NCBI RefSeq assembly: GCF_000526195.1
Contig: NZ_JAFP01000001.1
Location: forward strand, 842,001 to 906,000
DNA length: 64,000 bases
Origin: Hippea sp. KM1
GTDB lineage: Bacteria > Campylobacterota_A > Desulfurellia > Desulfurellales > Hippeaceae
Direction: 5' to 3'
Below the pieces are notes generated by a model that had not been told where the DNA came from, did not search any database, and saw only the letters and a program-made list of their open reading frames with translations. The position numbers and the translations under genes are program-made. How positions within the stretch are numbered: the first letter of the stretch is position 1; every line of letters starts with the position of its first letter. Below, in pieces: positions 46,002 to 48,746 of the stretch.

Positions 46002-46017
46002 GGGAGGGGTGCCTCCC
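46002..46017 (-). terminator. Hairpin after the DUF505 gene
   Basis: On the minus strand, GGGAGG-CACC-CCTCCC forms a 6-base-pair GC-rich stem with a 4-base loop beginning at the DUF505 stop codon, followed by TTCTTCTCTTG. The tail is pyrimidine-rich rather than a pure U-run, so efficiency is uncertain. Confidence 0.55.
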
Positions 46018-48014
46018 TATTCTGTGAAGCTGAACAGACCGTCATCGACGGTTGCCTTCATCATATCGAACGCCTCAAGCAACTCCACGCCCGATGTTGT
46101 AATGGAGTTGCTGCCGACAAAGCCTGCAGTCCTTGCTATCTTTAGCGCCTCATAGAAGGCCTCTTCGCTAAGGTTGCTGATTTTTTGGGCCTTCTTGATG
46201 TTTTTGGGCAGAACCCTGATTTTTCTCTCCTTTACATAGAGCGTTCCTGCGCTTCTTAAAGAGATTAGCATCCTCATTAAAACAGGGTTTACTGGGTTTG
46301 CAAAGCTATCCGGCACGCCCGATACGGCAGAATCTATCTTCTGGCCTATTGGTGTTTCGATTATGTTTCCGTCGGGTAATACCTCAATAATCCTTCTTGC
46401 CTCAAGCTTCTCTATAGCCCATTTTATCTTATCCTTCTCATAATCCTTAAGCTCCTTTAGGTTGTATACCTCATCTATTGTTATCCCCTTTGCGGGTATT
46501 AATTTGAGTATCTTGGCCTCAAAGTTGGTCAGGTGGGGTTTTCTGTTGATGGTTTCAGACAGTTTAGCATACAACTGCCCGCTGGATGTGGCCTCGAAGT
46601 TTCCAATTAAGCCGGCCTCTTTTGCCTCATTGAGCCACTCAATTGAGGGGCTTGAGAATGTCTTTTTGGTCATCGTTATGGCCTTTACGGCCGTTGAGCT
46701 TATGCTTCTTTTGTTGTCCTTCTGATCCTCTATTATCATTCTACCGAATTCGGTTAGCCTGAATATCTCCCTGTTTTTCTCCTCTGTGCTCTCTATCAGG
46801 TCAAATGATTCTAAGCTAAACAGCTCCTCCCTCAACATAAAATTATCATCATACCATCTCTTTAAATCCTTTGCCTGCTGAAATGCCTCGGCTATCTTTC
46901 TGTATTTTTGCGGTATATCCTTTATCTTCTTTCCGTATCGCTCTATGAGGGCTTTGTATTCCTCTATCCTTTTGTCTATCATCCTGTTTCTTAGGTTTTC
47001 GAATGTGGGCATGTCGGATTCGCTTTTTGTTTCGGCATAGCGCTGATTTAGTTTATCGATCGTCTCTAATACCTCAACCTCTTCCTTTTCTATTGCTATG
47101 GTCCATATATCCTTCCTTGGGCCATCATGCCAGACCCTAAAGGCCTCAAGGAGCCATTCGCCGGCTTTGAGCAGTTCGCCGTTGTTGTCTATATAGGCAA
47201 GCTCTTTAAGCCTTGATAAGGCCTCCTGTGGGATTTGAACGCCATCAACATGGTTGGCCAGCGACCACATGATGTCTTCACTTATTACTGTGCCGCTTGA
47301 GAAGCCGCCGTTTAGGAGTGTGTTTTTGATCGCCTGACCCAGGGCTGTGAATATGTAAACATCGGATATCGGTGCGCTGTATGCAATAAGCCTCATGCCT
47401 TCCAGCATGTGTTCATAGTGGCTGCCCAATGGCAATCTGTCGGATGTTGTAGGCCCCATCGGCACCTTCCTGATAAACTCGGCCAGCTCATCGTCTATGA
47501 TGAGCCTTGGATGGGCGTTTTTGTATATCTTTAGTATGTTGCTTGCAGCCTCACTGAGTATGACCATCTCCTTCTTTTTGTCTGTATCCCATACCCTTAT
47601 TGCAAGTCCCCTTTCTATGAGGTGTTTTTCAGACTTTGGGCCGACCCTTTCTGCCTTATCCGCAGCATCTATCATGGCCATGATCTCGCTGCCTATGAAC
47701 CTGAAATCATCAGGCCAATCCTCAGGCTCCGGCAGTCCCCTGCCTTCTTTGATGACGATCTCGCCTTTAACCTCGTTTTCGTCCTCCGAATAGGGTTTTG
47801 GACCCTGATTGTACAGATCCTCAAGCAGCTCGGCTATGGATAGGCCCGAATAGGTCAGAGTCCACTTAAGCGGGGTTTTCTGTCTAACAAGGCCTGCCAC
47901 CTCCAATTCGGCCATAACCTCGTTATCTATATCTCTTGACGGTGTATAGGAATCGGATCTGTATTCTTTTAATAGCTCCCTCAATGCCAATGCATGTGGT
48001 TTTCCTATTACCAT
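46017..48014 (-). CDS. DUF505 protein with serial winged-helix-like modules
   Basis: A 665-residue soluble protein that I recognise as DUF505-type; function unknown. Reading the sequence, it contains a series of roughly 60-90-residue units that each end in a beta-hairpin followed by 'T-x-x-G' and a helix: TLTYSGLSIAELLEDL (about 48-63), FRLTEFGRMIIED, FEATSSGQLYAKLSE, IIETPIGQKIDSAV and ITTSGVELLEAFDMM. Related helical blocks (HALALRELLKE, FEAKILKLI, FYEALKIARTAGFVG) precede them. This is how winged helix-turn-helix domains look in sequence, so it may bind nucleic acid or proteins through several wHTH modules. A perfect ribosome site (AAGGAGGTGAT) precedes the ATG, and the stop of the upstream unknown gene lies inside it, implying coupled expression. 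Confidence 0.8.
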   Translation of the reverse strand: MVIGKPHALALRELLKEYRSDSYTPSRDIDNEVMAELEVAGLVRQKTPLKWTLTYSGLSIAELLEDLYNQGPKPYSEDENEVKGEIVIKEGRGLPEPEDWPDDFRFIGSEIMAMIDAADKAERVGPKSEKHLIERGLAIRVWDTDKKKEMVILSEAASNILKIYKNAHPRLIIDDELAEFIRKVPMGPTTSDRLPLGSHYEHMLEGMRLIAYSAPISDVYIFTALGQAIKNTLLNGGFSSGTVISEDIMWSLANHVDGVQIPQEALSRLKELAYIDNNGELLKAGEWLLEAFRVWHDGPRKDIWTIAIEKEEVEVLETIDKLNQRYAETKSESDMPTFENLRNRMIDKRIEEYKALIERYGKKIKDIPQKYRKIAEAFQQAKDLKRWYDDNFMLREELFSLESFDLIESTEEKNREIFRLTEFGRMIIEDQKDNKRSISSTAVKAITMTKKTFSSPSIEWLNEAKEAGLIGNFEATSSGQLYAKLSETINRKPHLTNFEAKILKLIPAKGITIDEVYNLKELKDYEKDKIKWAIEKLEARRIIEVLPDGNIIETPIGQKIDSAVSGVPDSFANPVNPVLMRMLISLRSAGTLYVKERKIRVLPKNIKKAQKISNLSEEAFYEALKIARTAGFVGSNSITTSGVELLEAFDMMKATVDDGLFSFTE

Positions 48015-48026
48015 ACCATCACCTCC

Positions 48027-48746
48027 TTAGTCTAAAGAGTCCAGCATTCTGTTGAGCTTTTCGGCAATGTCGACATCGAATAAACAGATGGTCGGCACAA
48101 TCCAGCTCACCATGTATCTGTTTTTTTTGTCTTTGTTTTGACCGAAGTAAGCAAGGCTAAATCTGCCAGACTTTAGGTGTTTTCTTATTAGATCCTTGGC
48201 CTCCCTCAGGGCCCTTCTCATGTTCAGTGGCAGCTGGTCAAAATCGTAAGCCTTACCCTCTTCGGTGTTCTTCTGTATGAATTCCGTTGTTAGGCCGGAT
48301 GATCTGAATGCAGAAAGCAGCCTGTCGAATCCGTTTTTCTTAAAATAGACCAGTAAGAGCTCTGCTGCAGGAAGGCTAAACAGCAGCGTATCGTCATGCT
48401 CCTGATCGCTGTAATATGCCCTGATTGTGCCCCTTCTGTCTTCTAAATCCACCTTTATGATGAGTTTGGCACCCTCCTTGAGGTTTGCAGGTATGCTCTT
48501 TACCTCAAACTCCTCTCCGTTTTCTTCGTATTTGTCGCCAACACTTCTTTTGTTTTCGACTTCGCTGACAAATACGCTCTCAACACCTCCCCTCAATCCA
48601 AACAACAAATCAAAACCCCACGCCTTAAGGCTCTTTAGCTTAACCTCTAACTGGTCGGGCAACACGCCCCAGCTTTCCCTGACGAATGTGTTTAACATCC
48701 TTTGGTGTTTTACGCTCAACTCCCTAACCGTTTTCTTGTAAGACAT
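48027..48746 (-). CDS. Unknown 239-residue protein paired with DUF505
   Basis: I do not recognise this protein. I start at the ATG at 48746 (MSYKKTVREL) because GGAGG lies at the right distance; a longer in-frame extension to 48860 runs back through the promoter region and is not supported. There is no signal or membrane helix. It contains a helical N-terminus, a beta-rich middle (FEVKSIPANLKEGAKLIIKVDL, GTIRAYYSDQEHDD) and a helical C-terminal part (LPLNMRRALREAKDLIRKHL). It is the first gene of a two-gene unit with DUF505, with the two genes 12 bases apart. The pair may function together. Confidence 0.75.
   Translation of the reverse strand: MSYKKTVRELSVKHQRMLNTFVRESWGVLPDQLEVKLKSLKAWGFDLLFGLRGGVESVFVSEVENKRSVGDKYEENGEEFEVKSIPANLKEGAKLIIKVDLEDRRGTIRAYYSDQEHDDTLLFSLPAAELLLVYFKKNGFDRLLSAFRSSGLTTEFIQKNTEEGKAYDFDQLPLNMRRALREAKDLIRKHLKSGRFSLAYFGQNKDKKNRYMVSWIVPTICLFDVDIAEKLNRMLDSLD

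Follow-up and report, generated by a model that had tools for sequence, protein, structure and literature searches.

The window analyzed here, a 64,000-nucleotide stretch of the Hippea sp. KM1 genome (1.74 Mb in a single contig), carries on its minus strand two closely coupled genes, both real members of known but uncharacterised families. The open frame at 46017..48014 (minus) encodes a 665-residue protein, P0001, that matches PF04458 (DUF505) in full length, over residues 1-649, with E 1.9e-205 and a score of 684 bits against a gathering cut-off of 28.7; it retains all of the conserved unit glycines of the family, from which it differs in no respect. Directly upstream, the gene at 48027..48746 (minus) encodes the 239-residue P0002, which is matched in full length by PF03673 (UPF0128; E 3.3e-57, 194 bits, cut-off 21) and scores 190.3 bits with TIGR00703, above the curated cut-off of 155.4, this family too being uncharacterised. 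The junction between the genes reads ...gacTAA, then GGAGGTGATGGT, then ATG, with an intergenic gap of 12 nt. Because TAA directly precedes GGAGGTGATGGT-ATG, the ribosome-binding site of the DUF505 gene, AAGGAGGTGAT (48018..48028, minus), shares both A of the UPF0128 stop codon and so begins within it. An earlier, sequence-only reading of this DNA had described a 665-residue DUF505 gene behind a 239-residue gene, with a ribosome site including the upstream stop; its coordinates, lengths and strand are right, and the site does use two A of TAA.

The neighbors of the pair in the window are prmA, purL, a membrane methyltransferase and mobA-like genes, with no chaperones among them. In the literature searched we found no description of DUF505 function, the DUF505 hits that were opened concerning DUF5059, and no paper describing UPF0128 or its pairing with DUF505; nor did sequence searches return a credible solved structural relative. 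A phage, plasmid or viral origin of the pair was rejected, with no match by tblastn or among viral contigs, as was an anti-phage defence system, PADLOC giving no match for P0001 or P0002.

Repeated units in DUF505

The architecture of DUF505 was examined in an alignment of 17 proteins with P0001 as reference, the other members being 30-62% identical to it. Eight units can be counted in P0001, each with a predicted wing followed by [T/S/L]xxG, the Gly position being Ala in unit 2. Glycines 57, 226, 285, 424, 479 and 557 are invariant in the alignment and Gly642 is nearly so, and each of these conserved glycines opens the helix that follows a predicted wing. Unit 1 (residues 7-73, Gly57; 47796..47996, this and all following coordinates on the minus strand) gives a weak HTH_45 match in the family member L015 and a profile match to unit 7 (77%), while unit 2 (residues 107-173, Ala157; 47496..47696) matches unit 4 (89%) and, weakly, EarA in L046. 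Unit 3 (residues 176-242, Gly226; 47289..47489) matches unit 5 (58%), and unit 4 (residues 243-301, Gly285; 47112..47288) is matched by wHTH-PRTase_assc in L047 (E 0.001). There follows a helical linker (residues 310-380; 46875..47087), predicted to consist of long helices and containing no unit. Beyond it, unit 5 (residues 381-436, Gly424; 46707..46874) resembles DUF4364 in L046 (E 7.7e-5) and PadR in L047 (E 5e-4). Unit 6 (residues 437-495, Gly479; 46530..46706) is the least certain, with a profile match to unit 8 (55%) and no Pfam winged-helix match in the family members scanned, and the structural model is of low confidence there. Unit 7 (residues 496-573, Gly557; 46296..46529) is matched by HTH_45 in L047 (E 5.2e-5) and TrmB in L046 (0.0036), and unit 8 (residues 577-656, Gly642; 46047..46286) by wHTH-PRTase_assc in P0001 itself (E 0.0012).

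Scanned member by member, the weak Pfam winged-helix matches, which also include HVO_A0261_N (E 9.5e-4), thus fall on units 1, 2, 3, 4, 5, 7 and 8, those to units 1-3 being the weakest (E 0.014-0.21). Every member stays below the curated winged-helix cut-offs, the best case being HTH_45 in L047 with 23.6 against 25.5 bits. When the units are compared with each other by hhalign, 8 of the 26 non-overlapping pairs reach a probability of at least 50%, as opposed to none of 156 column-shuffled comparisons, which peak at 3.8% (Mann-Whitney p about 1e-14, the unit pairs not being independent), and segments of the central helical linker, used as a control, match none of the units. The units of P0001, each a wing with a C-terminal helix, are therefore mutually related, as in a serial array.

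An AlphaFold2 model of P0001, calculated from two sequences only, is poor overall (pLDDT 52, pTM 0.28) and better around residues 250-285, 340-400 and 575-650. In secondary structure the model fits the units, showing helix-helix-strand-strand-helix elements, as in unit 2, and strand-strand-helix in unit 7; unit 8 is the best-predicted part (pLDDT about 80). The best Foldseek matches in the PDB are winged-helix regulators (DtxR/IdeR, GntR, MntR and IclR) with E of at least 0.02, none of them significant alone; the model of UPF0128 (pLDDT 49), likewise calculated from two sequences, is unusable. Repeated winged helices therefore have good support from sequence, the structure being no more than consistent with them. 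The at least five winged-helix units originally proposed have thus become eight, with similarity far beyond that of shuffled controls; structure prediction, which had been suggested as a check, returned the secondary structure of the units and winged-helix fold matches but no confident structure. PadR, HTH_45, DUF4364 and TrmB proteins are mostly DNA-binding regulators of one or two domains. Single DUF505 units resemble such domains weakly, whereas the protein as a whole strings about eight mostly acidic units into one chain.

Inheritance of the pair

Among 25 genomes of the window's phylum, DUF505 is found in 6 and UPF0128 in 4, in all four cases directly before DUF505, the sister species G005 and G006 having DUF505 only. 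An Anaerolineales MAG (L002) has the pair as well. Across 301 genomes of that order both families are confined to the same 11 (p about 3e-20, with no correction for shared ancestry), and they are adjacent in 10. In the eleventh genome, G507, they lie on different contigs and another gene follows UPF0128. UPF0128 precedes DUF505 in all 14 pairs, with a gap of 9-39 nt in 13 and 135 nt in one, this order and tight spacing being kept across about 40-45% protein divergence, and the distances between UPF0128 proteins track those between DUF505 proteins closely (Mantel r 0.94, 14 pairs). Around the Anaerolineales pairs no conserved neighbors are seen. There are DUF505 genes with no UPF0128, in Ktedonobacteria-type genomes, in G183 and in the two sister species above, while UPF0128 without DUF505 was met here only in G420. 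Only two of the 14 control genomes carry DUF505, those of Thermotoga maritima and Methanocaldococcus jannaschii, and the latter has UPF0128 as well.

The suggestion of an undescribed two-gene module consequently holds in a restricted form: the UPF0128-DUF505 module exists, but in a single clade only, outside of which DUF505 is often on its own. One could argue that the two genes are neighbors of convenience, co-transferred between thermophiles and having no joint function. Each has been found alone, DUF505 often and UPF0128 once, they are separated in G507, and the spread of the pair clade over two distant bacterial phyla does suggest transfer. Against this stand the perfect co-occurrence in 301 genomes, with both genes kept even in G507, and an order and spacing that have remained fixed while the proteins diverged, so that we regard this explanation as distinctly improbable. 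We read the locus as a two-gene operon, UPF0128 then DUF505, in which UPF0128 is a small, usually basic and optional partner protein.

A P0005-like third gene of the module was rejected, as it is present in two genomes only. A 246-residue protein with no family match (no hit in PADLOC, Pfam, NCBIfam or PHROGs) lies after DUF505 in L002 (L002:7111-7851) and directly after UPF0128 in G507 (L064:4540-5277), the two copies being 65% identical; its N-terminus recalls CRISPR RAMP proteins, by eye only. Some 3 kb from the pair in L002 there is a CRISPR-like array (L002:1-1089) of 15 repeats of about 37 nt with a spacing of about 73 nt.

Chaperone and protease neighborhoods

In 400 Chloroflexota genomes DUF505 exceeds the cut-off in 12 (13 genes), and 10 of these genomes (11 genes) belong to one class of 47 genomes that we infer to be of the Ktedonobacteria type. 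It is in this group that DUF505 appears among chaperone genes, the names of the neighboring genes having been confirmed by NCBIfam on representatives. At five loci in four genomes (L048-L052) the order is grpE-dnaK-DUF505-dnaJ-hspR-clpB; G389 has two such heat-shock operons (L048 and L050). At L041 (G353) clpB follows DUF505 directly and Hsp20 lies upstream, clpB being present there as two overlapping frames (L041:10672-13286), possibly through a frameshift or an assembly error. The HspR-controlled dnaK-grpE-dnaJ-clpB operon is an established system of which, to our knowledge, DUF505 is no known member. Some Chloroflexota relatives are thus embedded in it, unlike the DUF505 gene of the window.

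A second arrangement involves ftsH, which is divergent from DUF505 in all four genomes where that flank is present (L042, L043, L045 and L047), the corresponding side ending at the contig end in L044; Hsp20 is near ftsH/DUF505 in two of the genomes (L042, L043). On the other side, an RtcB-family ligase and archease are convergent with DUF505 in five Chloroflexota genomes (L042-L045 and L047), and the ensemble may form an RNA-repair and proteostasis stress island. These RtcB and archease genes raise the question of whether RNA or ribosomes are the target of DUF505 under stress, in RNA repair or the protection of tRNA and rRNA, with UPF0128 as a basic RNA-binding subunit. UPF0128 is indeed basic, and rpsL-fusA lies downstream in L072 and prmA upstream in the window. 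These ribosomal contexts are single cases, however, the RtcB gene lies outside the operon of DUF505, and an RNA-binding family match is absent, so that a role on RNA appears unlikely.

Finally, in the sister species G008 and G009 an SDH-family Clp-fold serine protease gene lies directly downstream of DUF505. We rejected the protease as an obligate third gene because it is located elsewhere in the window genome and in other species.

Together, at least three arrangements connect DUF505 with proteostasis by guilt by association, which is not proof. This connection, invisible to a reading of the window sequence by itself, makes heat stress a new lead for the family. In the tree the chaperone-embedded genes are grouped in a clade of their own (100/100 support), without UPF0128 and apart from the clade of the window. 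Since the chaperone contexts come from this UPF0128-less Chloroflexota clade, the function of DUF505 in the window may differ, and a chaperone-linked role of the window gene would be an extrapolation from these relatives. Upstream of the pair in the window there is no CIRCE element within 5 mismatches and no HAIR element within 3, and the operator scan as a whole gave nothing beyond chance; in the part of the window that was scanned, two HAIR-like sites with 3 mismatches both fall inside coding sequence.

Charge and possible function

DUF505 is acidic, with a net charge of about -20; pI values are 4.9-5.9 and net charges -8 to -36 in 16 of 17 members, the exception being the divergent L015, and the regions of the third helix, preceding the wing, are neutral to acidic (mean net charge -4.1 to +0.6). 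The pI of UPF0128, by comparison, is 8.1-9.5 in 13 of 14 proteins, and the median for window ORFs of at least 200 residues is 8.6. The acidic array disfavors nucleic-acid binding by DUF505, and of the two possibilities first raised, a multivalent nucleic-acid or protein-binding scaffold, the protein scaffold remains and is, from the sequences, the likelier; against it counts that an overall acidic charge is also found in some DNA-binding proteins with winged helices. The opposite charges suggest that DUF505 and UPF0128 may bind each other.

The same data bear on whether DUF505 is a DNA-binding regulator, its winged-helix series forming a transcription factor or nucleoid protein by which heat-stress genes are controlled or protected, UPF0128 being a co-factor. 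Its nearest folds and families are transcription regulators (PadR, TrmB, DtxR/IdeR, GntR), and at five loci it shares an operon with the regulator HspR. HspR, however, is already the dedicated heat-shock repressor of those operons, the shared operator looked for in the CIRCE/HAIR scan was not found, and the helix-3 regions have the charge just described; we consider such a regulator rather improbable.

Our preferred reading, to which we assign a probability of roughly 40%, is that the heat-stress and protein-quality machinery uses DUF505 as a protein-binding scaffold or adaptor, which in one clade forms a complex with UPF0128. The acidic protein, its roughly eight winged-helix modules flanking a central helical stretch, would serve DnaK-DnaJ-GrpE, ClpB, FtsH and the membrane Clp-fold protease, and in one clade it would bind UPF0128 directly. 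We infer the binding of UPF0128, the choice of protein over nucleic-acid targets and the heat-stress role in this organism. A broader version, in which DUF505 is a new prokaryotic heat-stress component, a multivalent winged-helix scaffold organizing chaperones and proteases on their substrates in thermophiles, joined in some lineages by UPF0128, is more doubtful. If true, heat-shock systems in several bacterial lineages, and possibly in archaea, would gain a scaffold component; we found no description of winged-helix arrays as protein adaptors in bacteria. DUF505 and UPF0128 are given a common architecture and a defined gene partnership, together with a pathway that is specific and can be tested, DnaK/ClpB/FtsH proteostasis.

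The charge exception, L015, is a 588-residue DUF505 protein from a sister species (L015:9033-10799) in which the central helical linker is partly missing; it has a near-neutral charge and sits on a very long branch, and its function has possibly been relaxed or changed. One HAIR-like site (3 mismatches) lies 39 nt upstream of its gene.
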